This document shows, in pieces, positions 14,591 through 64,000 of a DNA stretch of 64,000 bases (position 1 is its first letter; each line of letters starts with the position of its first letter). Both the position numbers and the translations under genes were made by a program. Under the pieces are notes generated by a model that was not told the origin of the DNA, searched no databases, and saw nothing but the letters and a program-made list of their open reading frames with translations. Source of the DNA: Flavobacterium sp. WV_118_3 (GTDB lineage Bacteria > Bacteroidota > Bacteroidia > Flavobacteriales > Flavobacteriaceae); NCBI RefSeq assembly GCF_039778605.1, contig NZ_CP156060.1:3252001-3316000 (forward strand). The letters are read 5' to 3'.

Positions 14591-14623
14591 ACACCTGACA
14601 GGTTTTCGAAACCTGTCAGGTGT
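14591..14623. terminator. Long hairpin, likely bidirectional terminator (repeat family copy 1)
   Basis: The arms ACACCTGACAGGTTT and AAACCTGTCAGGTGT with a TCG loop form a 15-bp perfect stem between the convergent helicase (+) and doxX (-) genes. Almost the same hairpin occurs at 48078-48118, again between convergent genes. Confidence 0.8.
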
Positions 14624-49550: not shown

Positions 49551-52313
49551 ATGATGAAGAAAACGTTCCTGATGCTATTGATGATTATGCTTAATTCTAT
49601 TTGTTTCTCTCAGGTTTTTCCGGAAGGATTTGAAGGAAGCTTTCCGCCTTCCGGTTCGGAAGGAGCCTGGATCGTAACGCACAACGGAATAGGGATGGGA
49701 CCGATGAACCGGAATATCTGGAAACAAACGCCTCGTATTACGAGTGTGTATAATCCACATTCCGGAAATTATGCTGCTATGGTCGAAAAAATAAACATTG
49801 GAGACGGTAAAACAGAAGAAGACTGGCTTATTGCACCCAAAGTTGCCATTCCGGTCGGTGGCGAATTGTCCTTCTATATTTTGCATGGACGTGCCGGTGA
49901 TCAGGGATCCAAACTCAAAATAAAGATTTCAAAAACAGCTCAAACGGATCTGTCTTCTTTTACAGAAGTAGCTGAATTCTCAGAAAGTCAAATTGGTTCT
50001 GTTTCAGGTGTCTATAAAAAGATGACGATTACTTTTAACGAACAACACGTCACAGCAGATGAAATGGTTTATATCGCCTTTGTGCGCGTGCATAAGCAGA
50101 CGGAAGGTAGTACTGGTGACCGCTTTTTGATTGATGATATCGAATTGAAATCTCCCTGTGTTACACCAAAGGATATCAAGATAACGAATGTTACCGCCAA
50201 TTCGGCAGTGTTAGCCTGGGCGCTTCCGGACAGTCCCGGAAAATGGGAAATCGAACTGATTGCTGCTGCTTCGCCACTTTCCGAAAGTACTACTGTAACC
50301 GAAAACCAATATGTTGTCATAAATCTTAATCCTCAAACGACCTATCGCTTCAGAGTGCGGTCGGAATGTGGGGAAATGGCATACAGTGAATGGAGTGATT
50401 TCTATGCGTTTACTACCCTTGTGAATAATGACGAGTGCCGTAATGCTCAAACGATTCCTGTAAACGAAGATCAATCCTGTAGTAAAGTAGTACCGGTATC
50501 TTTTTTAGGAACTACGATAACCGGATCCGATAGCTGTGTACCGGATAATAATGGCGATATATGGTTTTCTTTTACGGCTACTCATGAAACTCATATGATT
50601 GACCTGATTAATTTCAAAGGAAACGCAAAACCGGTTGCCATAACGATGTATGAAGGAAAACAATGTGATCAAATACAACCAATATATTGTAATACCACTA
50701 ATTCTTTACTGGCATTGGGATTGCGGATAGGGACTGTTTATACCCTCCGGCTGGCGGTTAATAGTCTGCGTGGAAAAACAACCTTTAGCTTTGATCTCTG
50801 TGTTAAGATACCGGATGTTGTCCAGAGCAAGGCTACAGATTGTCTGGTTTATACTGTAAATCCGGATTTTGAAAAGCCTTTACATCAGGTGAAATCAGCA
50901 TATCCCCAACTTTATAATCAGCACAGTGTTCCGGGATGGAAAACAACAGCGGAAAATAACCATATAAAATTTTGGCATTCGGGTAATAATCTGAATATAC
51001 AGGCTTATTCAGGAACTCAGTTTGTTGAAATTAATGAAACGGAAGGTTCGGATATATACCAGGATTACGCGACGGCAGTTCCTATATCCTTTCGGTGTCG
51101 TTTTTTGCACAGAGGTCGGGATAATGAAAGTTCCTGTGCACTCTATGCCGGTCCGCCGGAAGGTCCCTTTGCTTTAGTTGTGATCGCTACAACAGGGAAC
51201 AATGCCTGGAAGGAGTATGTCGGAACGTACGCTGTTCCGGAGAATCAGCCTGTAACCCGTTTTATTTTTAAAAACCAGTCAGGTAGTGGCAACCTTCTGG
51301 ATGATTTTGAGCTAAAAAGCGATAATAGTATTATCACACCAGGCCCTATACTGTTAAATTGTGCCAACGTTTTGGCAAATGTCTCAGCAAAAGGGGAGGG
51401 TGTCTGGCTGGCCGATACTAATAATCCCGGAACATCTACGATAGGGGATTATCATGCCAATAAAACTACGATCTCCGGATTTACAACAAGCGGAACCTAT
51501 CGTTACTACTGGAAAACAGCATATTGTGTTGATATACTTGATGTGAAAATTGATAATGAGGATAAAACAACCCTTCTGACGTTTAATCCGATCGGGCCAA
51601 TTTGCCCGGGAGCAGCCGTTCCGAAATTACCCAGCCGTTCGAAAGAAGGAATAGCAGGTGCCTGGATGCCACCGGTAATCAGTAATGCTATTACGACGAC
51701 TTATATCTTTACCCCGTATGCCAATCAATGCGTAAAACAAGGTATTACAGCATCGCTTACAGTAGCAGTACAACCGATAGCGGTAACTGTTCTTAGTGAT
51801 TGTACCGATGATGAAGTCGTGCTGAAAATACAACCAGAAGAAGGAAATACTTTTGACCTGACAAAGACTCATTTTCAATGGTTCTGTGATAAAAAAGGAA
51901 AAGTAGGCGATAATATGCCTGATTTTAATGTGACTCGTTATTGCCGGGATTGGATTAATGATGTTGCTTTTCCGATTGTTTTTACGGTTGAAGTTACTGT
52001 AGCAGGTAGATGCTCCGTTACAAAAGAAATTGTCGTCAAAGGGCTGCGTTGTCAGATTCAAAAAGGGATCTCGCCCAATAACGATAATTTGAACGACACT
52101 TTTGATTTAACGGGGTTTAGTGTCGAAAAACTAAGCATTTTTAACCGATACGGTACGGAAGTTTACAGTCATGGTGCAGGCTATACCAACCAATGGTTCG
52201 GACAATCCAAAAATGGCAGTGAGTTGCCGGATAGCACCTATTTCTATGTTATTGATTTGGAAAAAGGTGAAACAAAAACGGGTTGGGTTTATATCAGCAG
52301 AGAAAATAGATAA
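49551..52313 (+). CDS. T9SS type B surface protein, module 1
   Basis: A 920-residue secreted protein. The signal peptide ends NSICFSQ. The mature N-terminus (FPEGFEGSFPPSGSEG, WLIAPKVAIP) is a cleaved-adhesin/choice-of-anchor-J-type domain. An FN3 domain follows (NVTANSAVLAWALPDSPGKW, about residue 208), then a PPC-like domain (NDECRNAQTIPVNEDQSC), a lectin-like domain (PDFEKPLH to LLDDFELK) and Ig-like regions. The C-terminal 85 residues (GISPNNDNLNDTFDL, LSIFNRYGTEVY) are the gliding-associated type B sorting domain that directs T9SS export. The ATG at 49551 (or 49554) gives a normal signal. A PorP gene follows. Confidence 0.9.
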   Translation: MMKKTFLMLLMIMLNSICFSQVFPEGFEGSFPPSGSEGAWIVTHNGIGMGPMNRNIWKQTPRITSVYNPHSGNYAAMVEKINIGDGKTEEDWLIAPKVAIPVGGELSFYILHGRAGDQGSKLKIKISKTAQTDLSSFTEVAEFSESQIGSVSGVYKKMTITFNEQHVTADEMVYIAFVRVHKQTEGSTGDRFLIDDIELKSPCVTPKDIKITNVTANSAVLAWALPDSPGKWEIELIAAASPLSESTTVTENQYVVINLNPQTTYRFRVRSECGEMAYSEWSDFYAFTTLVNNDECRNAQTIPVNEDQSCSKVVPVSFLGTTITGSDSCVPDNNGDIWFSFTATHETHMIDLINFKGNAKPVAITMYEGKQCDQIQPIYCNTTNSLLALGLRIGTVYTLRLAVNSLRGKTTFSFDLCVKIPDVVQSKATDCLVYTVNPDFEKPLHQVKSAYPQLYNQHSVPGWKTTAENNHIKFWHSGNNLNIQAYSGTQFVEINETEGSDIYQDYATAVPISFRCRFLHRGRDNESSCALYAGPPEGPFALVVIATTGNNAWKEYVGTYAVPENQPVTRFIFKNQSGSGNLLDDFELKSDNSIITPGPILLNCANVLANVSAKGEGVWLADTNNPGTSTIGDYHANKTTISGFTTSGTYRYYWKTAYCVDILDVKIDNEDKTTLLTFNPIGPICPGAAVPKLPSRSKEGIAGAWMPPVISNAITTTYIFTPYANQCVKQGITASLTVAVQPIAVTVLSDCTDDEVVLKIQPEEGNTFDLTKTHFQWFCDKKGKVGDNMPDFNVTRYCRDWINDVAFPIVFTVEVTVAGRCSVTKEIVVKGLRCQIQKGISPNNDNLNDTFDLTGFSVEKLSIFNRYGTEVYSHGAGYTNQWFGQSKNGSELPDSTYFYVIDLEKGETKTGWVYISRENR

Positions 52314-52368
52314 TAACATCAGAGAACGCCTGATCGTGTTAGGGGATTTATTGAGAAGTAGTATAGCA

Positions 52369-53289
52369 ATGAAGAAAATATATTTGACCGCCTTTTTAGC
52401 CCTGATCGGATTAAAAGAGGCCTCAGCACAACAAGACCCACATTATACACAATACATGTATAATATGAATGTCATCAACCCGGCGTATGCCGGTTCGAAG
52501 GAGACCTTATCCTTTGGGTTGTTATACCGCAAGCAGTGGGTTGATCTTGAAGGGGCTCCGTCTACGGCTACCTTTTCGGGTCACAGTCCGGTAGGTAAGA
52601 ATGTAGGATTGGGACTTTCGGTAATTTCGGACAAGATCGGTCCTGTGAAAGAGAATAATGTGTACGCTGACTTCTCCTACACCTTAAACCTTGGTGGTGA
52701 ACACAAACTGGCTTTGGGATTAAAAGCGGGAGCGACTTTCCATAAGGTTGGGCTATTATCGGATGTAAGTCCGTATGTTCCGGATGCGAACGACCCTGCT
52801 TTTGCCGAGAACACCAGCCGTACGTTTTTTAACGCGGGAGCCGGATTGTTCTACTATACCAATAAGTACTATTTGGCAGCTTCGGTACCCAACATGTTAA
52901 AGTCGACGTATTTGGATTATAACGGCCGTAAATTCGGAAGTGATACCCAACACTATTTTGTAACGGGGGGATATGTATTCGATTTAAGCGAGAATGCAAA
53001 ATTCAAACCGTTCTTTATGGTGAAGTCGGCCTTCGATGCGCCAACTTCGTTTGATGTATCGACCAACTTCCTTTTTTATGACAAATTCGAAATCGGAGCT
53101 ACTTACCGATTGGACGATTCCTTCGGAGCGATGGTTAACTATGCCATTACGCCAAGCCTTCGTATCGGATATGCTTATGATCATATCGTATCCGATTTAA
53201 AAAAAACGGCATCATCATCGCATGAATTTATAGTACTGTTTGACCTCTGTTTTTCTAAAATTGCATCCAAATCGCCCCGATATTTCTAA
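52369..53289 (+). CDS. PorP/SprF family outer-membrane protein, module 1
   Basis: A 306-residue membrane protein. The signal peptide ends EASAQ, and the mature start QDPHYTQYMYNMNVINPAYAG is diagnostic of PorP/SprF. SprF-type proteins assist secretion or anchoring of type B CTD proteins by the T9SS. I use the ATG at 52369, matching its twin at 61710; the longer frame overlaps the adhesin gene. The two twins agree at almost every base from just before the start codon until about 35 codons from the end. Confidence 0.95.
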   Translation: MKKIYLTAFLALIGLKEASAQQDPHYTQYMYNMNVINPAYAGSKETLSFGLLYRKQWVDLEGAPSTATFSGHSPVGKNVGLGLSVISDKIGPVKENNVYADFSYTLNLGGEHKLALGLKAGATFHKVGLLSDVSPYVPDANDPAFAENTSRTFFNAGAGLFYYTNKYYLAASVPNMLKSTYLDYNGRKFGSDTQHYFVTGGYVFDLSENAKFKPFFMVKSAFDAPTSFDVSTNFLFYDKFEIGATYRLDDSFGAMVNYAITPSLRIGYAYDHIVSDLKKTASSSHEFIVLFDLCFSKIASKSPRYF

Positions 53290-53307
53290 CATTAAATAGC
53301 CTACAGT

Positions 53308-55224
53308 ATGAAAAAAATGGTCTTCGCTTTTGTTGTCGCAATTATTAGTTTTAAAGTAGCCGCTCAGCATGGAAATACCTATATAGCGGATAGTTATTTT
53401 AACCGTTCCGAATATGCCAATGCGGCTGATGCCTATTTGGAAGTAATGGATAAAAGTCAGAGGAAAGATAAAAATTATATATATAAACAACTGGCCGACA
53501 GTTATTACAATATGCCTGATGCTCCTAAAGCTAATGAATGGTATGCTAAGGTAATCGCTAAAAAACAAGATGCCGAAACCTATTATCATTATGCCGAGAT
53601 GTTAAAGGTAGAAGGAAAATACGAGGAAGCTAACAAACAAATGAAACAGTTTGTCAAAATGTCGCCCAAGGATCCGCGAGCAATTGCTTTTAAAGAAAAT
53701 CCAGACTATCTGACTAAATTAAATAATATCGTAAAAATTTTCGATCTGAAACGATTGGATTTTAATAGCGATAAATCGGACTTCGGTGCGTTTTTAAGTA
53801 GTGATAATATGCTATATTTTGCTTCAGCTCGTAACACTTCGCGTAAAATCTACGGATGGAACAATGAGCCGTTTTTGGATTTATATGCTGCTGTTTATAA
53901 TGCCAACGGAACCTTTAGTGAACCGGTGTTGGTCGATAATATCAACTCAAAATACCATGATGGACCGGCTACAATCAGCGCCGATGGGAATACGATGTAT
54001 TTTGCCAGTGAGAGTTTTAAGAAGAGATTGTTTCATCGGAATAAAGTGAAAAAAATAAAGCAAGGCCAGGTTAATTTGTTTAAAGCCATTAAAATAGACG
54101 GAAAATGGGGTGACATCAAACCCCTTCCGTTTAACAGTAAAGACTATTCTACCAGTAACCCAAGTTTGAGTAAAGACGGTAAAACATTGTACTTCTCCTC
54201 AAACATGCCCGGTTCGGTAGGAGGTGTGGATATCTGGAGAGTAACGCTCAATGAAGATGGTACTTATGGTAAACCTCAGAATCTGGGTAAAACAATCAAT
54301 ACTAAGGGAAATGAAAGTTTTCCGTTTGTGACAGACGATCATAAATTGTTTTTTGCATCTAATGGGCATCAGGGATTTGGTGGATTGGATGTTTACTGCG
54401 TCGATCTGGTTGGAAAAATGAAAGTTAGCAATCTGGGAAAACCGGTAAATTCTGCGAAAGATGACTTTGCCTTTAGTTTTAATAAAGCAAAAAACATCGG
54501 ATTCGTTTCAAGTAATCGCGACGGATCGGATAATATTTACAGCGTTATCCCGCTTGTTGTTTCCGAAAACACAATTCCGGAAGCGACTGAGACAGATTGG
54601 AAAGAAGCAAAAGAACCGGAAAAACCGATATTGCTTGTTGAGAACTCCGATCTTGTAAAAAAAGAGGCCGCAATTGGTGTCGATGGATTGGTGCAGGGAA
54701 TCAGGTTGCCAACCAAAGCGATGCTGAATCAATCGGACGATGCAAATGGGATTAGAACAACGGCATCCGAATCTATAGGCGCAGTAAAAAAAGAAGATGC
54801 AATCGTCGCTAGTAATACTGATAATGCGCATACAGCCGTAACAGGTGAAAACGCAAATCATACCATTGCTGTTGGAGCAAAAGCATTGGATGATATTTAT
54901 TTTGACTTCGATAAAAGTGTAATTAACGAGGTGGCGGCAAAAGAATTGGATAAACTGGTTCGAATAATGAACGAAAACCCGGAAATGGTTGTCATGGTAA
55001 AGTCGCATACGGACAGCCGCGGGAAACAAGGTTATAATTTAAAACTTTCGGTACAGCGGGCGGAAGCAACGGTTCAATATGTGATTTCTAAAGGTATCTC
55101 CCAAGAGCGGATTTACGGTGAAGGATATGGCGAAAGCCTTCCTAAAGTGAACTGTCAGGATGATTGTACCTTCTGGAAACATCTTCAGAATAGAAGATCG
55201 GAATTCATAATTGTTAAGAAATAA
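53308..55224 (+). CDS. TPR-PD40-OmpA family protein, module 1
   Basis: A 638-residue periplasmic protein. The signal peptide ends FKVAAQ. TPR-like helices (about residues 25-135) are followed by PD40/WD40-like beta-propeller repeats (LYFASARNTSRKIYG, GPATISADGNTMYFAS, NPSLSKDGKTLYFSS, about 160-410). A linker that differs from its paralogue lies at about 420-535. A C-terminal OmpA domain follows (YFDFDKSVINEVAAKEL, KSHTDSRGKQGYN) with the usual peptidoglycan-binding pattern. Such proteins may link the PorP channel to peptidoglycan. It follows porP by 18 bp. Confidence 0.93.
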   Translation: MKKMVFAFVVAIISFKVAAQHGNTYIADSYFNRSEYANAADAYLEVMDKSQRKDKNYIYKQLADSYYNMPDAPKANEWYAKVIAKKQDAETYYHYAEMLKVEGKYEEANKQMKQFVKMSPKDPRAIAFKENPDYLTKLNNIVKIFDLKRLDFNSDKSDFGAFLSSDNMLYFASARNTSRKIYGWNNEPFLDLYAAVYNANGTFSEPVLVDNINSKYHDGPATISADGNTMYFASESFKKRLFHRNKVKKIKQGQVNLFKAIKIDGKWGDIKPLPFNSKDYSTSNPSLSKDGKTLYFSSNMPGSVGGVDIWRVTLNEDGTYGKPQNLGKTINTKGNESFPFVTDDHKLFFASNGHQGFGGLDVYCVDLVGKMKVSNLGKPVNSAKDDFAFSFNKAKNIGFVSSNRDGSDNIYSVIPLVVSENTIPEATETDWKEAKEPEKPILLVENSDLVKKEAAIGVDGLVQGIRLPTKAMLNQSDDANGIRTTASESIGAVKKEDAIVASNTDNAHTAVTGENANHTIAVGAKALDDIYFDFDKSVINEVAAKELDKLVRIMNENPEMVVMVKSHTDSRGKQGYNLKLSVQRAEATVQYVISKGISQERIYGEGYGESLPKVNCQDDCTFWKHLQNRRSEFIIVKK

Positions 55225-55250
55225 ATAATAAAATAATTTAACAATACTCA

Positions 55251-55280
55251 AAGAGCAGCCTATATGGCTGCTTTTTTTGT
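55251..55280 (+). terminator. Terminator closing module 1
   Basis: AGCAGCC and GGCTGCT pair around TATAT, followed by a T-run. It separates the two modules. Confidence 0.85.
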
Positions 55281-55321
55281 GAATTTTAACATATAACGTT
55301 AAGTTATTGCTAATTTTATTT

Positions 55322-55329
55322 TATATTTG
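55322..55329 (+). promoter_or_regulatory. -7 promoter element for module 2
   Basis: TATATTTG fits TAnnTTTG, 34 bp before the giant adhesin start codon. This gives the second module its own promoter. Confidence 0.5.
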
Positions 55330-55363
55330 GGGATTAAACTTATCAAAAATCATAGGATTAATT

Positions 55364-58300
55364 ATGAAAAAAATTACATTATTAATTCTTATGTCATTAT
55401 TGAGTTTTGTGAGCTATTCACAAGTTTTCCCCGAAGGATTTGAAGGTGCTTTCCCACCATCAGGGCCAGGAGGATCTTGGGTTGTCACTCATAATGGCAT
55501 AGGAATGGGGCCCGCTAACGGGAATCTGTGGGTGCGTTCACCGCTAAATTCCACAGCATCCCCTCCTCACACTGGCAACTATGCTGCCGTGGTTGAAAGA
55601 GTGAATGTCGGTGACGGGAACACCGAGCAAGATTGGTTGATCTCTCCAGTGGTTACTGTGCCGGCTAACGGACAGTTACGTTTCTACGGACTTCATGGAC
55701 GTGCAGGAGATCAGGGATCAAAACTGAAAATTAAAGTATCAACAACAACAACGTCAGGATCCCAAGGTACTTTGGCGAACTACACTATCGAAGTAGCGAG
55801 CTTGACGGAAACGCAAGTGTCTCCTGTTGCAGGAGAGTACAGAGAGGTGGTTGTTAACCTATCGCCAGCTGTAGCGGCAAACCAGCAAGTGTATATCGCT
55901 TTTGTAAGAGAGCATACACAAGTAGGAACCGCAGCCGATGGTGACCGTTTTGTGATTGACGATATTAATCTGGTTCAGCAGTGTTTGGATCCTACCAATG
56001 GGGTAGCCAACAATATCACATCGAACTCCGCTGTGTTATCATGGACCAATCCAAGTGGTTCTACACAATGGGAAATCGAATTAATCCCTTCTGCAGATCC
56101 TTTAACAGGAGTGGGACAAGTTATTAACTCGAATCCATATACCGCTACTACAACTTCAACTGGTGCACCGATTGCACCTGGAACGGTTTACCAATATAAA
56201 GTACGATCAATATGTACTGGTGGTGTACCTAGTGATTGGGCAGGACCTTTCTATTTTACAACGGTAACTTTAGGACAGACTTGTGCTGCGCCAATTATGA
56301 TCAACCAGTTGCCGTACTCCACTACCGATAATACGAGTAACTACGGTAATAATATTAGTGGTAGCCAGGGAACAACAGGTTGTGGTACCACAACAAACTA
56401 CTTAACAGGTAATGACGTAGTGTATGCTTATACTGCTACTTTTACCGGTAATATTGATATTTCGATGACCCCTACGGCAACGTATTCGGGTATTTTCGTA
56501 TATAATAACTGTGCTAATATCGGAACAAGCTGTTTGGCAGGTATCGGAAACTCGAACTCCAATATCAGAAACATTCCTAACTTCCCGGTAACGGCAGGAA
56601 CGACTTACTATTTTGTTATTTCTACCAACGCGACTCCGCAAACAACGGGATATACTTTAGTAATTCAGAAAGTAACATGTACACCTCCGGGTGCTTTGGC
56701 TGTTGCGGGTATTACGATGAACTCGGCTAACTTAAGCTGGAGTAATCCTTCATCGGGTACAGAATGGGAAGTAGTTGTTCAGGCACTTGGTGCGGGAATC
56801 CCTCAGGGAGCAGGAACAGCTGTAACCACAGGACCGGCTTATGTTGCTACTACTACTGTAACAGGTACGCCTTTAGCTTCCGGAACAGATTATGAATATT
56901 ATGTAAGAGTAAAATGTCCGGACGGATCTTATAGTCAGTGGTCAGGACCAAAACCATTCAAAACATTACCAAACTACTGTGCGGGAGATCATTTCTTTGA
57001 TCCGGGAGGACCTAATGGACAGTATGCTAATAGTGCTAACGTAACAACAACTATTTGTCCTACAAACCCAGGAGATATCGTTACCGTTACTTTTAACTCG
57101 TTTGACACAGAGTCAGGATACGATTTCGTTCGTGTTTATAACGGACCAAATGCTACGTCTCCATTATTAGGAACGTACTCAGGAAACTTAACAGGTGCGA
57201 ACCTTCCTGGACCTTTTGAGTCATCAGGACCAGGTGCTTGTTTAACGTTTGTATTTACTTCTGACGGAAGTGGTATACGTGACGGATGGGATGCAACAGT
57301 AACGTGTGGACCACCGCCAACTTGTCCGAAACCGAAAAACTTAGCTGTATCGAATATTACAGCGAATTCGGCTCAGTTAAACTGGTTGGAGTCTGGAACA
57401 GCTACAAGCTGGGTTGTAATCGCGGTACCAGCAGGTACACCTAACCCGAACAATAACCCAATTCCTGGAACAGCAATTACGGCTACGGTAACGACACCGC
57501 CACCGTATGTGTTAAACGGATTGAGTTCAAATACGGATTATGATTATTATGTAAGAGCAGTTTGTAGTCCAACGGATTCCAGTACATGGGCAGGACCTAG
57601 AAACTTTAAAACACAGCCAGACTTCTGTGCTGGTGACCATTTCTTTGATCCGGGAGGACCTAATGCACAGTATGGAAACAATGCTAACGTAACAACAACA
57701 ATCTGTGCGCCAACGCCTGCAGATATCGTTACCGTTACTTTCTTAAACTTTAATACAGAATCTGGATTCGATTTCGTACGTGTATATAACGGACCAAATG
57801 CTACGTCTCCATTATTAGGAACTTATTCTGGAGCTTTAACCGGAGCAAACTTACCAGGCCCTTTTGAATCTAATGTGGGTGGATGTTTAACTTTTGTATT
57901 TACTTCAGATGGAAGTGGAACACGTGACGGATGGGAAGCTACAGTAACATGTGGACCACCGCCAACATGTCCGAAACCGAAAAACTTTGTAGCGTCTAAC
58001 CCTACGATGAACTCGGTTCAGTTAAACTGGCTTGAAGCCGGAACGGCAACTAGCTGGATTGTAATGGCAGTTCCAACAGGAACTCCAGATCCAAATACAA
58101 ACCCAATCCCTGGAACAGCAATTACGGCTACGGTAACTACACCACCACCGTATGTATTAGGAGGATTGACTTCGAATACAGAATATGATTTCTATGTAAG
58201 AGCGGTTTGTAGTCCAACGGATTCCAGTACATGGACAGGCCCTAGAACACTTAGAACATTACCGAACTACTGTGCCGGTGATCATTTCTATGATCCGGGA

Positions 58301-61300
58301 GGACCTAACGGACAGTACGGAAACAGTGCTAACGTAACGACTACTATCTGTCCGGCGAACCCGACTGATATGGTTACCGTTACATTCAATAGTTTCAATA
58401 CTGAAGCTGGATATGACTTTGTACGTGTGTATGAAGGAACAGGAACAACAGGTACTTTATTAGGAACATATGCAGGTGATTTAACAAACAACCTACCTGG
58501 CCCATTTGAGTCAACTGTGGGAGGATGTTTAACATTTGTGTTTACATCTGACGGAAGTGGAACACGTGACGGATGGGATGCTACAGTAACATGTGCACCA
58601 CCACCAACATGTCCGAAACCGAAAAACTTATCGGCTACTAATATGACACAAACGTCTGCCGATCTAAACTGGCAGGAAATGGGTACCGCTACGCAGTGGG
58701 AAGTGATTGTATTACCAGCAGGTTCTGCACCACCAGCTCCTGGAGCTACAGGGGTGATTGTTAATACACCACCACCATTTACCTATAGTGGACCACCGGC
58801 ATTGTTGCCAGGAAGACCATATGATTTCTATGTGAGAGCTATTTGTAGTGCTTCAGATATCAGTGCCTGGTCGATTAAAGGAACATTCCGTACGTTAATT
58901 TCGAATGACGAATGTACTGCACCAATTCACGTACCGGTAAATGAAGATTCACTTTGTGGTCAGACAACACCGGGAACATTAGCAGGAGCAACAGCTTCAG
59001 CTTTACCAAACACTTGTGGTGGTAACCCGAATGATGACGTTTGGTTTGAATTTACAGCGACACATACACAACACTATATCGCGTTGTTAAATACTACTTC
59101 AACTGGTTTAAATACAGATAATATGTATCACTCGGTATACAGTGCATGTGGTGGTACACCAATTGTATGTAGTGATCCGAATAACAGTCTTGTAAACGGT
59201 TTAGTACCGGGACAAAACTATTTGATCCGTGTATATAGTAATGCAGCAACAGCACAAAGCTTCACATTTAACCTTTGTGTGGGTACAGTTATTACTTGTG
59301 CCGATGCGCAAGCATTCTGTGCGAACAATACATCACCATCAATTACCTTCCCAGGTTCTATCGGGGTGCCAAACTTAGGAACAGTAGCGTGTTTAACAAC
59401 AACGCCTAACCCAACTTGGTATTTCTTACAAGTACAACAATCAGGAAACTTACAGTTCCAGATTTCTCAAACCAGTACTACAGGACAAGGAATTGACGTG
59501 GATTTCATCGCTTACGGTCCGTTTACTTCACCTACAGCAGGTTGTGGTAACCTTGGAGCAAACGTAGGATGTAGTTATAGTTCCGCATCAGTTGAGAACT
59601 TTAATATTCCGAATGCTATATCAGGTCAATATTATTTGATTGAGATTACGAACTATAACGGTAGTGCGGGTAATATTACTTTAGCACAAACCAACCAGGG
59701 TCAGTCAGGTGCCGGTTCTACGAACTGTGACATCGTTTGTACGGTTGACTTAGGTCCGGATAAGATTTTATGTGGACAAACATCATACACGTTAGATGCT
59801 GGAATTGTAAATGCAACTACTTATACTTGGTATAACGGAACTAACGTTATTCCTGGTGCTACAGGTCAGACATTAACCGTTACACAATCGGGTGAGTATA
59901 GCGTAGTGGTTACAAAACCATCATGTTCAAACAACCCTACGGATAGTGTAAACATTACTTTCGGCCCAACTATTAATCAGGTTACAATGCCGGATTATAA
60001 AGTTTGTGACGATATATCTAACGACGGATTAGCGGATTTCGATTTGTCAACATTAACCCCTCAGGTTGTTGCAGGACAGAACCCGGCGTTTACGTATAAT
60101 GTAACCTACCATGCTTCATCAGCTGATGCTACTGCCGGAGTAAATCCAATTGACGCAACTGTTCCTTATAACAGTAACACGAAAATAATTTACATCCGTG
60201 TTGAAGGAGCAAATAGTGCTACATGTTTCGGTGTGATTCCGGTGAACCTGGTTGTAAAACTAATGCCAATCGTAACGATGCCGGCTACCTATTCTGTATG
60301 TACTGGAACTGTAACGATTATTGGTACACCTCAAAACTACACTGCAGCTAATAATCCAACGTATACATGGTACTTCGGTACAACTGTTATCGCTGGTGAA
60401 ACAACTGATCAAATAACAGTATCACAAGCGGGTACTTATACATTAGAAGTAACAGTTGACGGATGTACAAACTCAGTTAGTACAGTTGTAACGAACGACG
60501 GTGTTACTGTTACCGCTCCGGATGATGTAACGGTTTGTGGTTCGTATACCTTACCAACATTAGCGTCCGGTACATATTATACAGGTTCTGGTGCTACTGG
60601 TACTGTATTGAATGCTGGTGATGTGATCACATCTACACAGACCATTTATGTTTACTTACAGTCTACAGTGAATCCAAGTTGTTATGCGGAAGATAGTTTT
60701 AATGTGAATATTACAACTAACATCGTTGCTCCGGTAATTCCAAGTGCGACAGTTTGTGATAGCTATACATTACAACCGTTACCTTCGTTCGCGAATTACT
60801 ATACCGGTACTGGTGGAACAGGAACGTTGTTAACAGCTGGTTCTACAATTACAACTTCACAAACGATCTACGTATATGCACAGTCGGGTGTTGCACCAAA
60901 CTTCTGTACAGATCAAAGTAGTTTTGTGGTAACGATCCAAACAGCTACTGCTGATGCTCCGGCTAACGTGGAGTCTTGTGGAGCGTATACTTTACCGGCA
61001 TTATCTGCTAATAATAACTATTACACAGGTCAAGGTGGTACAGGTACGATGTTAAATGCAGGTGATCCTGTTAATGCAACTACAGTATTGTATGTATATA
61101 CAAGTACTTCTGCAGGATGTAACGATGAGAATAGTTTCACGGTAACAATCTATAACACACCTACAGTTGCAACATTACCAGATGTAACAGTAGAATGTGA
61201 AGGATTTACATTACCGGCATTACCAGCAGGAAATGCATACTATACCGGTACTGGTGGAACTGGAGCCCAGTTACAAGTTGGACAAGTAGTTTCGACTACT

Positions 61301-61642
61301 CAAACCGTTTACATCTTTGCTCAAACCGGAACAGGTTCGGCAATTTGTACCAACGAAAGTAGCTTCGAGATTTCTGCTTCATGTATAATACCTAGAGGTA
61401 TTTCGCCAAACAATGACGGATTAAACGATACTTTTGATCTTTCTAATTTCGAAGTAGAAAAACTAAGCATCTTTAACCGATACGGTACAGAAGTGTTCAG
61501 CCATGGCGCAGGTTATACTAAGCAATGGTTTGGTCAATCTAAAGGTGGTAGTGAGTTACCAGACGGTACCTATTTCTATGTGATCGAGTTAAAAGGAGGG
61601 GATACTAAAACCGGATGGGTTTATATCAGCAGAGAGAAATAA
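55364..61642 (+). CDS. Giant T9SS type B surface protein, module 2
   Basis: A 2092-residue secreted protein. The signal peptide ends SFVSYSQ. The N-terminal domain (FPEGFEGAFPPSGPGG) is of the same type as in module 1. Then come FN3, a PPC-like domain, another FN3, and three CUB-like domains alternating with FN3 (CUB starts AGDHFFDPGG or AGDHFYDPGG). Next are another PPC-like domain (NDECTAPIHVPVNEDSLC), Ig-like regions, four short repeats ending ...YYTGxGGTG... with TQTIYVY, and the type B sorting domain (GISPNNDGLNDTFDL). I use the ATG at 55364, as it gives a normal signal. The product probably acts at the cell surface, in adhesion or in polymer binding. Confidence 0.92.
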   Translation: MKKITLLILMSLLSFVSYSQVFPEGFEGAFPPSGPGGSWVVTHNGIGMGPANGNLWVRSPLNSTASPPHTGNYAAVVERVNVGDGNTEQDWLISPVVTVPANGQLRFYGLHGRAGDQGSKLKIKVSTTTTSGSQGTLANYTIEVASLTETQVSPVAGEYREVVVNLSPAVAANQQVYIAFVREHTQVGTAADGDRFVIDDINLVQQCLDPTNGVANNITSNSAVLSWTNPSGSTQWEIELIPSADPLTGVGQVINSNPYTATTTSTGAPIAPGTVYQYKVRSICTGGVPSDWAGPFYFTTVTLGQTCAAPIMINQLPYSTTDNTSNYGNNISGSQGTTGCGTTTNYLTGNDVVYAYTATFTGNIDISMTPTATYSGIFVYNNCANIGTSCLAGIGNSNSNIRNIPNFPVTAGTTYYFVISTNATPQTTGYTLVIQKVTCTPPGALAVAGITMNSANLSWSNPSSGTEWEVVVQALGAGIPQGAGTAVTTGPAYVATTTVTGTPLASGTDYEYYVRVKCPDGSYSQWSGPKPFKTLPNYCAGDHFFDPGGPNGQYANSANVTTTICPTNPGDIVTVTFNSFDTESGYDFVRVYNGPNATSPLLGTYSGNLTGANLPGPFESSGPGACLTFVFTSDGSGIRDGWDATVTCGPPPTCPKPKNLAVSNITANSAQLNWLESGTATSWVVIAVPAGTPNPNNNPIPGTAITATVTTPPPYVLNGLSSNTDYDYYVRAVCSPTDSSTWAGPRNFKTQPDFCAGDHFFDPGGPNAQYGNNANVTTTICAPTPADIVTVTFLNFNTESGFDFVRVYNGPNATSPLLGTYSGALTGANLPGPFESNVGGCLTFVFTSDGSGTRDGWEATVTCGPPPTCPKPKNFVASNPTMNSVQLNWLEAGTATSWIVMAVPTGTPDPNTNPIPGTAITATVTTPPPYVLGGLTSNTEYDFYVRAVCSPTDSSTWTGPRTLRTLPNYCAGDHFYDPGGPNGQYGNSANVTTTICPANPTDMVTVTFNSFNTEAGYDFVRVYEGTGTTGTLLGTYAGDLTNNLPGPFESTVGGCLTFVFTSDGSGTRDGWDATVTCAPPPTCPKPKNLSATNMTQTSADLNWQEMGTATQWEVIVLPAGSAPPAPGATGVIVNTPPPFTYSGPPALLPGRPYDFYVRAICSASDISAWSIKGTFRTLISNDECTAPIHVPVNEDSLCGQTTPGTLAGATASALPNTCGGNPNDDVWFEFTATHTQHYIALLNTTSTGLNTDNMYHSVYSACGGTPIVCSDPNNSLVNGLVPGQNYLIRVYSNAATAQSFTFNLCVGTVITCADAQAFCANNTSPSITFPGSIGVPNLGTVACLTTTPNPTWYFLQVQQSGNLQFQISQTSTTGQGIDVDFIAYGPFTSPTAGCGNLGANVGCSYSSASVENFNIPNAISGQYYLIEITNYNGSAGNITLAQTNQGQSGAGSTNCDIVCTVDLGPDKILCGQTSYTLDAGIVNATTYTWYNGTNVIPGATGQTLTVTQSGEYSVVVTKPSCSNNPTDSVNITFGPTINQVTMPDYKVCDDISNDGLADFDLSTLTPQVVAGQNPAFTYNVTYHASSADATAGVNPIDATVPYNSNTKIIYIRVEGANSATCFGVIPVNLVVKLMPIVTMPATYSVCTGTVTIIGTPQNYTAANNPTYTWYFGTTVIAGETTDQITVSQAGTYTLEVTVDGCTNSVSTVVTNDGVTVTAPDDVTVCGSYTLPTLASGTYYTGSGATGTVLNAGDVITSTQTIYVYLQSTVNPSCYAEDSFNVNITTNIVAPVIPSATVCDSYTLQPLPSFANYYTGTGGTGTLLTAGSTITTSQTIYVYAQSGVAPNFCTDQSSFVVTIQTATADAPANVESCGAYTLPALSANNNYYTGQGGTGTMLNAGDPVNATTVLYVYTSTSAGCNDENSFTVTIYNTPTVATLPDVTVECEGFTLPALPAGNAYYTGTGGTGAQLQVGQVVSTTQTVYIFAQTGTGSAICTNESSFEISASCIIPRGISPNNDGLNDTFDLSNFEVEKLSIFNRYGTEVFSHGAGYTKQWFGQSKGGSELPDGTYFYVIELKGGDTKTGWVYISREK
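56970..58900 (+). repeat. Three tandem CUB-FN3 units inside the giant adhesin
   Basis: The segment starting near the CAGDHF codons recurs at about 56973, 57622 and 58267, a period of about 645 bp (215 residues), each unit being one CUB-like and one FN3 domain. Long identical DNA stretches across copies (such as ggaccaaatgctacgtctcc in the first two) suggest recent duplication. Confidence 0.85.
60520..61340 (+). repeat. Four short beta repeats inside the giant adhesin
   Basis: Four successive units of about 65-70 residues share a pattern of Cys, Y-or-F-T-L near the start, then YYTG, GGTG or GATG, an AGD/AGS/VGQ turn, and TQTIYVY or variant. They precede the C-terminal sorting domain. The family is not recognised by name. 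Confidence 0.7.
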
Positions 61643-61657
61643 GCAGTAACATTATAT

Positions 61658-61690
61658 AAAGACCTGCCTGAGTGATCGGGCAGGGACTTT
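61658..61690 (+). other. Hairpin between giant adhesin and porP
   Basis: CCTGCC (61663-61668) pairs with GGCAGG (61679-61684), with AAAG/CTTT flanks able to extend the stem. There is no long T-run, so it may be a processing or partial-termination site that lets porP be expressed at a different level from the adhesin. Confidence 0.45.
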
Positions 61691-61709
61691 ATCTACAAAC
61701 AGTATACCA

Positions 61710-62630
61710 ATGAAGAAAATATATTTGACCGCCTTTTTAGCCCTGATCGGATTAAAAGAGGCCTCAGCACAACAAGACCCACATTATACACAATACATGT
61801 ATAATATGAATGTCATCAACCCGGCGTATGCCGGTTCGAAGGAGACGTTATCCTTTGGGTTGTTATACCGCAAACAGTGGGTTGATCTTGAAGGGGCTCC
61901 GTCTACGGCTACCTTTTCGGGTCACAGTCCGGTAGGTAAGAATGTAGGATTGGGACTTTCGGTAATTTCGGACAAGATCGGTCCTGTGAAAGAGAATAAT
62001 GTGTACGCTGACTTCTCCTACACCTTAAACCTTGGTGGTGAACACAAACTGGCTTTGGGATTAAAAGCGGGAGCGACTTTCCATAAGGTTGGGCTATTAT
62101 CGGATGTAAGTCCGTATGTTCCGGATGCGAACGACCCTGCTTTTGCCGAGAACACCAGCCGTACGTTTTTTAACGCGGGAGCGGGATTGTTCTACTATAC
62201 CAATAAGTACTATTTGGCAGCTTCGGTACCTAACATGTTAAAGTCGACGTATTTGGATTATAACGGCCGTAAATTCGGAAGTGATACCCAACACTATTTT
62301 GTAACGGGGGGATATGTATTCGATTTAAGCGAGAATGCAAAATTCAAACCGTTCTTTATGGTGAAGTCGGCCTTCGATGCGCCAACTTCGTTTGATGTGT
62401 CGACCAACTTCCTTTTTTATGACAAATTCGAAATCGGAGCTACTTACCGATTGGACGATTCCTTTGGAGCCATGGTTAACTATGCCATTACGCCAAGCCT
62501 TCGTATCGGATATGCCTACGACCATATCGTATCCGATTTAAAAGTAACCACACCTTCTTCGCACGAAGTCATCTTGTTATTTGATGTTAACTTCTCTAAG
62601 AAAGTGTCCCGATCTCCGAGATATTTCTAA
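61710..62630 (+). CDS. PorP/SprF family outer-membrane protein, module 2
   Basis: A 306-residue protein with the same signal peptide and QDPHYTQYMYNMNVINPAYAG start as its twin at 52369. Reading the two side by side, I find only about a dozen base differences over the first 800 or so bases, all synonymous. The last 35 codons diverge (for example LKVTTPSSHEVILLFDVNFSKK against LKKTASSSHEFIVLFDLCF). The upstream 5-10 bases also match. Role as for SprF: partner for the giant type B protein upstream. Confidence 0.95.
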   Translation: MKKIYLTAFLALIGLKEASAQQDPHYTQYMYNMNVINPAYAGSKETLSFGLLYRKQWVDLEGAPSTATFSGHSPVGKNVGLGLSVISDKIGPVKENNVYADFSYTLNLGGEHKLALGLKAGATFHKVGLLSDVSPYVPDANDPAFAENTSRTFFNAGAGLFYYTNKYYLAASVPNMLKSTYLDYNGRKFGSDTQHYFVTGGYVFDLSENAKFKPFFMVKSAFDAPTSFDVSTNFLFYDKFEIGATYRLDDSFGAMVNYAITPSLRIGYAYDHIVSDLKVTTPSSHEVILLFDVNFSKKVSRSPRYF

Positions 62631-62649
62631 TATAAAAGCGACCTAAGAC

Positions 62650-64000
62650 ATGAAGAATTTATATATCACTTTAAGTTTTGTGATCGCTAGTTCGACACTA
62701 TCGGCACAAAACAAAGACACCCAAAGCGCCGACAAACTCTACAATAGATTTGAGTATGTCGATGCTGCCAATGCTTACCTGAAGCTGGTAGACAAAGGTA
62801 AAGCGGACGGATACGTTTACAAGCAACTGGCCGACAGTTACTACAACGTATTCAATGCTGCCGAAGCCTCCAAATGGTACGCTAAGGCGATCAGCGAAAA
62901 GCACGACGATGCCGAGACCTATTACCGTTATGCCCAGATGTTAAAAGCACAGGGGAAATATGACGAGGCGAACAAGCAAATGCAGAAGTTTGCCAGTATG
63001 GCTCCGAATGATCAGCGTGCGATCGCATTCAAGCAAAACCCGAATTATCTGCCCAAACTAAACGAAAAGGCGAAATCCTTTGATATCAAAAACATGGATA
63101 TCAACAGTGATAAATCGGATTTCGGAGCGGTTTTAACCAATGATAACACCCTGTATTTTGCCTCAGCGCGAAACACTTCGCGTAAAACCTACGGATGGAA
63201 CGAACAACCGTTTTTGGATTTGTACAGTTCCACGTATAATTCCGACGGAACCTTTAGTCAGCCGACACCGGTAGAGAGTATCAACTCGAAATACCATGAC
63301 GGACCGGCTACGATCAGTGCCGATGGTAATACGATGTATTTTGCCAGTGAGAGTTTTAAAGAAGGTATGTTTGAAAAAGACAAAGCGCAGAAGTTAAAAT
63401 TCGGACAGGTAAACTTGTTTAAAGCCACTAAAAACGGAAGTAGCTGGAGTAACATTACTTCATTACCGTTTAACAGTAAAGACTATTCTACCAGTAACCC
63501 AAGTTTGAGCAAAGATGGTAAAACACTTTACTTCTCTTCCAATATGCCAGGTTCAGTTGGTGGTGTGGATATCTGGAAAGTAGCGATCAACTCAGATGGA
63601 ACGTACGGAACACCGGAGAACCTGGGTAAGAAGATCAATACCGAAGGAAATGAGAGTTTTCCGTTTATCACGGATGACAACAAATTGTATTTCTCATCAG
63701 ACGCCCGTCAGGGATTTGGAGGAATGGATGTGTACGTGATCGACTTAAACAAAGGAACCGATGCGACGAACGTAGGAAAACCGGTAAACTCGGAGAAAGA
63801 CGATTTCGCATTTAGTTTTAATACGACTAAAAACATCGGATTTGTATCGAGTAACCGTGCCGGAGTAGACAACATCTATATGGCGATTCCGGTTTGTGGT
63901 GTGGAAGTGGTTTCTTTGGTTAGAGATGCAAAAACAGGCGCTAAATTATCAGGCGCTCGTGTAGCGATCTTAGACGAGAAAAACAACATCATTTCGACTA
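62650..64000 (+). CDS. TPR-PD40-OmpA family protein, module 2 (cut by window end)
   Basis: An open frame of 450 codons with no stop before the window ends. The signal peptide ends SSTLSAQ. Residues about 25-135 are TPR-like (YKQLADSYYNVFNAAEASKWY), followed by PD40 repeats (LYFASARNTSRKTYGW, GPATISADGNTMYFAS, NPSLSKDGKTLYFSSNMPG). From about residue 415 (VCGVEVVSLVRDAKTGAKLSG) begins a carboxypeptidase-regulatory-like Ig domain that the module 1 paralogue lacks. An OmpA domain is expected beyond the edge. It starts 19 bp after porP. Confidence 0.92.
   Translation, partial: MKNLYITLSFVIASSTLSAQNKDTQSADKLYNRFEYVDAANAYLKLVDKGKADGYVYKQLADSYYNVFNAAEASKWYAKAISEKHDDAETYYRYAQMLKAQGKYDEANKQMQKFASMAPNDQRAIAFKQNPNYLPKLNEKAKSFDIKNMDINSDKSDFGAVLTNDNTLYFASARNTSRKTYGWNEQPFLDLYSSTYNSDGTFSQPTPVESINSKYHDGPATISADGNTMYFASESFKEGMFEKDKAQKLKFGQVNLFKATKNGSSWSNITSLPFNSKDYSTSNPSLSKDGKTLYFSSNMPGSVGGVDIWKVAINSDGTYGTPENLGKKINTEGNESFPFITDDNKLYFSSDARQGFGGMDVYVIDLNKGTDATNVGKPVNSEKDDFAFSFNTTKNIGFVSSNRAGVDNIYMAIPVCGVEVVSLVRDAKTGAKLSGARVAILDEKNNIIST

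Follow-up and report, generated by a model that had tools for sequence, protein, structure and literature searches.

Type B cargo, PorP carrier and PorE-like gene modules of Flavobacterium sp. WV_118_3: probable static surface anchors with probably converted porP genes and a carrier tail that may address the periplasmic partner

Bacteroidota bring dozens of large surface proteins to the outside through one export system, the type IX secretion system (T9SS), and the same carrier family serves static and moving ones, which raises the question of what tells a carrier where its cargo belongs. A window of DNA from Flavobacterium sp. WV_118_3 (64,000 nucleotides, genome positions 3252001-3316000, in the single 3.85 Mb contig NZ_CP156060.1) poses this question in a compact form, since it holds two tandem modules, each comprising a cargo with a type B C-terminal domain (CTD), then a PorP/SprF carrier barrel and then a TPR-PD40-OmpA (PorE-like) protein. 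Judging from the sequences, we consider it probable, with good confidence, that each module provides a type B T9SS cargo with its own outer-membrane carrier and a wall-tying PorE-like protein, together making a static anchor, with gene conversion acting on porP and the carrier tail picking the periplasmic partner.

Module 1 (49551-55224; all parts of both modules lie on the forward strand and are given in window numbering) opens with a cargo of 920 aa (49551..52313), composed of a signal peptide, choice-of-anchor J, fn3 and GBD_T9SS_assoc domains and a type B CTD (CHU_C/Bac_Flav_CTERM, 52056..52301), and continues with porP1 (52369..53289, 306 aa, fold taken from the homologous PorP2) and the gene for PorE-like protein 1 (53308..55224, 638 aa: TPR, PD40 propeller and OmpA). 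Module 2 (55364 to 524 bases beyond the window end) has a cargo of 2092 aa (55364..61642: choice-of-anchor J, fn3, CUB, GBD_T9SS_assoc and a type B CTD at 61388..61633), porP2 (61710..62630, 306 aa) and PorE-like protein 2 (62650..64000, on to genome position 3316524; 624 aa: TPR, PD40, CarboxypepD_reg and OmpA). The gene coordinates and domain matches bear out the preliminary description of two tandem modules of like order and similar spacing with nearly identical barrels: the cargo gene and porP are 55 bp (module 1) and 67 bp (module 2) apart, porP and the PorE-like gene 18 bp and 19 bp, and the PorP1 and PorP2 proteins are 97% identical. The CHU_C domain was matched with E values of 6.3e-21 (cargo 1) and 3.1e-22 (cargo 2) and PorP_SprF with 2.4e-85 (PorP1) and 2.6e-85 (PorP2); the two carriers also scored 266.8 and 267.0 bits with TIGR03519 (cut-off 90.55) and 287 with PF11751 (curated cut-off 22.3). 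In the PorE-like proteins OmpA and PD40 were found and TPR weakly, and the NCBIfam PorE and CHU_0125 models matched strongly, yet below their curated cut-offs. In both modules the cargo ends in a type B CTD (CHU_C/TIGR04131), the PorP/SprF gene lies directly 3' of it and the PorE-like gene comes next, which is the arrangement of static-anchor operons. The fn3, CUB and choice-of-anchor J domains suggest that the cargos are adhesins.

All 10 PorP/SprF genes of the genome immediately follow a CHU_C gene of the same orientation (the genome has 20 CHU_C matches, 17 of them above the curated cut-off), and eight are followed by a PorE-like gene whose product matches both OmpA and PD40. The preliminary description had proposed a search for further copies; as the order cargo-PorP-PorE occurs eight times, it is not due to chance. 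CarboxypepD_reg is present in seven of the eight PorE-like proteins, the domain search finding no match to it in that of module 1. The corresponding stretch of the latter is disordered in the structure model. The nearest named carriers are mostly in Flavobacterium records, and the genome also contains a SprA gene. Two PorP genes have no PorE-like neighbor: the carrier at 930 kb (L008:9336-10538) bears a C-terminal extension of about 100 residues, mostly charged and lysine-rich, and the one at 3709 kb ends in YDCHCPAVN, a Cys-X-Cys (CxC) tail, and is likely, by this tail and its lack of a PorE-like neighbor, of the mobile (SprF) type.

The modules belong to an operon kind known from Flavobacterium johnsoniae (type B cargo, SprF-like, PorE-like), which was reportedly also described by Kulkarni in 2019. 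Five or six such operons are on record in that species, and PorE-linked cargos were proposed to be static (Gorasia 2022; Paillat 2025, PMC12618676). The Fjoh_3952-3951-3950 operon agrees with the present modules in the three gene kinds, their order and the private carrier, and Fjoh_3952 forms static foci and needs its carrier (PMC12618676); in contrast, the present genome holds eight modules, three of them with near-identical carriers, apparently through gene conversion. In Porphyromonas gingivalis, PorE, PorP and PG1035 form one complex, alike in combining a PorP barrel with a type B cargo and a PorE whose OmpA domain binds peptidoglycan (PMC9143113, the discussion of which speculates on holding the PorK/N ring), whereas that species has a single PorP and the present one many operon-linked copies. 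SprB-SprF shares the carrier fold, the CTD-bound cargo and a periplasmic C-tail joining a partner, but the SprF tail uses its Cys-X-Cys to form a disulfide with GldK Cys343, needed for movement and not for display (PMC12635249), and the window carriers end in SPRYF beside PorE-like genes. The SprF counterpart in this genome is the 3709 kb carrier, and its GldK (466 aa; Cys 17, 288 and 345) fits Cys285 and Cys343 of F. johnsoniae GldK.

In the mechanism we propose, Sec would export the cargo, as its signal peptide suggests, SprA would pass it across the outer membrane and PorP would take it up by the CTD, as published for relatives. The PorE-like protein would hold PorP from the periplasmic side while its OmpA domain binds the wall, as published for P. 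gingivalis PorE, and the exported cargo would stay fixed on the surface as a static anchor. Gene conversion would have made the PorP barrels of three modules alike, yielding one barrel type for several related CTDs, and the carrier C-tail would pick the periplasmic partner, [S/T]PR[FY]F calling for PorE and Cys-X-Cys for the moving GldK track.

The window carriers end in SKSPRYF and SRSPRYF (periplasmic C-tails at 53254..53286 and 62595..62627), neither containing the Cys-X-Cys of mobile SprF carriers, and the PorE-linked carriers of the genome end in [S/T/A]PR[FY]F. We classed the tails of 321 distinct carriers (porP2 and an identical copy being one) and counted 241, leaving out 78 whose selection rested on similarity to PorP2 (each with a PRFF tail and a PorE neighbor) and two too near a contig or locus end; a PorE neighbor was called by the position of its profile match, the open reading frame of PorE starting within porP in L149, L154 and L232. 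PorE lay next door to 119 of the 137 carriers with a PRFF tail and to 8 of the 104 with other tails (18 and 96, respectively, being without it), an association of 4e-38 by Fisher test with kinship ignored, and to none of the 25 CxC carriers. A class-level sample, chosen by PorP score alone, had PorE beside 17/17 PRFF carriers and 0/9 others, and an order-level sample had it beside 13/18 and 0/5. The exact end PR[FY]F is present in 202 of 216 PRFF-class tails.

A tree built from the 241 barrels minus the last strand and tail calls for a minimum of 11 changes in PRFF and 19 in PorE. A four-state model with linked rates beats one with two independent traits (likelihood ratio 27.0, 4 degrees of freedom, p 2e-5), the estimated rate of tail loss being 1.45 where PorE is absent and 0.044 where it is present, and independent evolution simulated on the tree gave a highest correlation of 0.49 against the 0.79 observed, which 0 of 1500 simulations reached. 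Because a small number of deep changes can sway model-based tests of this kind, we regard a tail-PorE link beyond kinship as likely rather than proven.

Other carriers of the family differ at the same end. Among 10 long-ended carriers scanned, an OmpA domain was located behind the barrel in three (L184, L185 and L195, all of one genome) and a SPOR domain in one (L178), and no added anchoring domain was found in the remaining six. OmpA and SPOR domains are known wall binders, and these natural fusions place the wall link at the barrel C terminus, where the tail sits. Carriers with very long C-terminal parts, 970-1465 aa in all, were also seen (L148, L140 and L131). The CPxF-class tails of distant carriers (e.g., L197, L205, L209-L211 and L217) end in a single-cysteine CP[KR]F, 15 of 18 without PorE, and are perhaps another track link. 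On these patterns we hold it possible, if somewhat short of probable, that the carrier C-tail is an address label, with [S/T]PR[FY]F leading to PorE, Cys-X-Cys to GldK and a fused OmpA or SPOR domain directly to the wall, and that it sets whether a cargo is fixed or track-driven.

The structure model of PorP2 is a 14-strand barrel (mean pLDDT 84.5, pTM 0.78) with residues 283-293 as its last strand and residues 298-306 disordered. Foldseek with this model returned FadL and, from solved T9SS complexes, the chains 8gl6_F and 6h3i_F, which we take to be PorV, and the OmpA end of the PorE-like protein resembles the solved PorE domain 6top; a sequence search of solved structures gave no match to PorP.

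Modules 1 and 2 share a best tract of 808 bp with 7 mismatches (99.1%; 52367..53174, corresponding to 61708-62515 in porP2), flanked by sequence of 64.6% identity over 463 sites on the left and 66.1% over 2043 sites on the right, and its score of 717 compares with at most 44 in 500 shuffles of sites. A third module, at 3734 kb, is 98.6% identical over the same tract. In module 1 the tract starts 2 bp 5' of the ATG and ends at codon 269, sparing the C-terminal end of the barrel, and the PorE-like DNA of this module is 71% identical to that of module 3. Modules 2 and 3 have a longer tract in common (2635 sites, 97.7% identity; 61523..64000, on to 64157), which begins within the CTD, spans porP and ends in the PorE-like gene, identity being 52.5% before it and 84.3% after it, and the passengers of these two modules align at no more than 72%. 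A sharp block of identity with diverged homologous flanks on both sides is what is asked of gene conversion, and the porP tracts of the three modules are best read, from this sequence pattern, as its product. Of the 19 genomes or strains surveyed, each represented by two or more carriers (for several, part of the carriers was covered), three had porP likeness of at least 94%: this genome, Flavobacterium sp. NRK1 (porP 94-97%, PorE 71-88%) and G086 (porP 99%, PorE 95%, CTD 73%). The C-terminal end was not spared in NRK1 and G086, where the last 90 bases of porP are 99-100% identical, and conversion was therefore no longer taken to leave the tail untouched in every case.

Near-identical PorP barrels can hardly tell cargos 1, 2 and 3 apart, except through their last approximately 30 residues. 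The CTDs are of one subtype, those of modules 1 and 3 being 80% identical, and carrier Fjoh_1646 also handles the Fjoh_3952 CTD, its kin at 68% identity, whereas this CTD is not handled by carriers whose own CTDs are at 43% and 26% (Paillat 2025, PMC12618676); as 80% lies above this cross-over level, crossing over is expected here, and the carriers of modules 1 to 3 are, by their sequences, probably interchangeable among these cargos. The pair had been put forward as a natural test of which component sets specificity, for which it is unclean; the difference in cargo size says nothing either way. Within genomes (124 modules; 2000 permutations each; genomes with at least five modules for CTD-PorP), CTD and PorP distances correlate in 16/16 genomes (r 0.66-0.97, reached in no more than 99 permutations), as do PorE and PorP distances in 10/10 (r 0.72-0.99, reached in no more than 76), and the PorE-CTD correlation is less even (r 0.36-0.97, with more than 100 permutations as high in 3/10 genomes). 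That PorE tracks PorP more closely than CTD fits a PorP-PorE contact. The suggestion of a dedicated carrier and periplasmic partner for each cargo is thus partly supported, agreeing with the eight modules, the CTD-PorP co-inheritance and the published work (Gorasia 2022; Paillat 2025), whereas its other half, barrels matched to their own cargo, does not stand, since the tract is shared and the PorE-like partners and passengers differ.

The CTD ends also separate two sets of cargo. HFS or HFT closes 12/15 CTDs linked to CxC carriers and 0/170 linked to PRFF carriers, and the window CTDs end in GWVYISR. By this end 7 of the 17 above-cut-off cargos of the genome are of mobile type (3709, 1103, 1780, 1484, 2159, 3042 and 2463 kb), and with a single CxC carrier in the genome, one carrier probably serves all seven, as one carrier was shown to serve three orphans by Paillat 2025 (PMC12618676). 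The cargos at 1780 kb (L279:344-6595), 1103 kb (L007:12835-18738) and 3709 kb (L009:3590-9769) are 97-98% identical over some 2.9 kb at the C-terminal end, and two of the three share 4.4 kb at 94%. It thus seems that mobile cargos have similar ends and a common carrier, and that static cargos have one carrier each, some of these made alike. One CHU_C cargo at 2296 kb (L282:771-2561) has a static-type CTD end and no adjoining PorP gene.

Several points weigh against the tail as an address label: (i) 18 of the 137 PRFF carriers keep the tail without an adjacent PorE, by which the idea of an invariable pairing was rejected (of the first 13 such carriers, L089, L090, L093, L097, L098 and L228 adjoin the same downstream genes as the PorE-bearing L149); (ii) the last 90 porP bases are identical in NRK1 though the PorE genes differ; (iii) an independent-pairs test on supported branches found approximately 2 concordant and 0 to 0.1 discordant pairs (p 0.25-0.5), which are too few; (iv) the tail classes were defined after the data had been seen, and the PorE profile was built from the eight proteins of this genome and may miss distant PorE; (v) joint duplication alone explains all of the CTD-PorP and PorE-PorP co-inheritance, no contact being needed; and (vi) when the PorP and PorE-like genes of module 1, which are in frame, were translated as one stretch, stops being replaced by Gly, and folded with AlphaFold on an alignment to 41 similar stretches, residues 296-318 had pLDDT below 50, pTM was 0.47 and no docking of the tail was seen, a linker running through the signal peptide being a poor stand-in for a complex. 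The PRFF tail could instead serve barrel assembly or folding, its C-terminal aromatic residue being a signal for the BAM machinery, with its tie to PorE inherited within one carrier clade. A C-terminal Phe is a classic BAM signal in Proteobacteria, many other carriers, such as the CPxF class, end in F too, independent changes on supported branches are few, and loci with an idle PorE retain the tail. We nevertheless think this explanation rather unlikely, since within this barrel family the CxC, no-Cys and long-extension carriers do without PRFF, which is then not needed for assembly in general, since the class-level sample pairs PorE with PRFF carriers alone and since the model-based tests reject independence.

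The likeness of the barrels could also stem from a very recent duplication of whole modules without any gene conversion: modules 1 and 2 stand in tandem, all three modules are paralogous along their length and modules 2 and 3 have as much as 2.6 kb in common. Such an origin is quite improbable given porP flanks of 65-66% on both sides, the diverged passengers of modules 2 and 3 and the porP-only or porP-PorE likeness in two other genomes. Even less credible is that the modules carry gliding adhesins like SprB. SprA, GldK and a SprF-like CxC carrier are all encoded in the genome, but the window carriers lack a Cys-X-Cys tail and sit next to PorE-like genes, their CTDs do not end in HFS or HFT, and the mobile substrates published in PMC12618676 lie outside PorE operons.

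Paillat 2025 puts the sorting information in the CTD-carrier pair and leaves the responsible part of the carrier unnamed. Should the tail prove to be the label, sorting could be addressed in F. johnsoniae by exchanging a short peptide: with the tail of its carrier replaced, a static protein would move and a moving one would stand still, while barrels can be homogenized between cargos. Conversion tracts account for identical carriers beside different cargos, and carrier identity should not be read as cargo matching. The PRFF tail, its link with PorE and the conversion of porP were not found in the open-access literature, subscription journals, preprints and supplements being outside the search.

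The claim that a promoter and a terminator set off each module held for the terminator side. An intrinsic terminator, read from the sequence by eye and absent from the list of the terminator scan, follows module 1 on the forward strand (55254..55278; AGCAGCC-TATAT-GGCTGCT, then T's), and hairpins occur downstream of module 2. The promoter side found no backing: sigma-70-like sites numbered 40, against 36.1 (standard deviation 5.4) in shuffles. At 55322-55329, TATATTTG resembles the -7 box consensus of Bacteroidota, with no -33 box seen at the usual spacing from it. Transposase genes (rve and HTH_28) are located a few kb 3' of module 3 (L002:2234-3459). Copies of the palindrome CCTGACAGGTTTnnnAAACCTGTCAGG number 44 in the genome, compared with 0 for a reversed control pattern; one site is in the window (14594-14620), those at genome positions 3316540 and 3732237 lie just 3' of modules 2 and 3, which have the shared tracts, and that at 1780735 lies shortly 3' of a mobile-type cargo.

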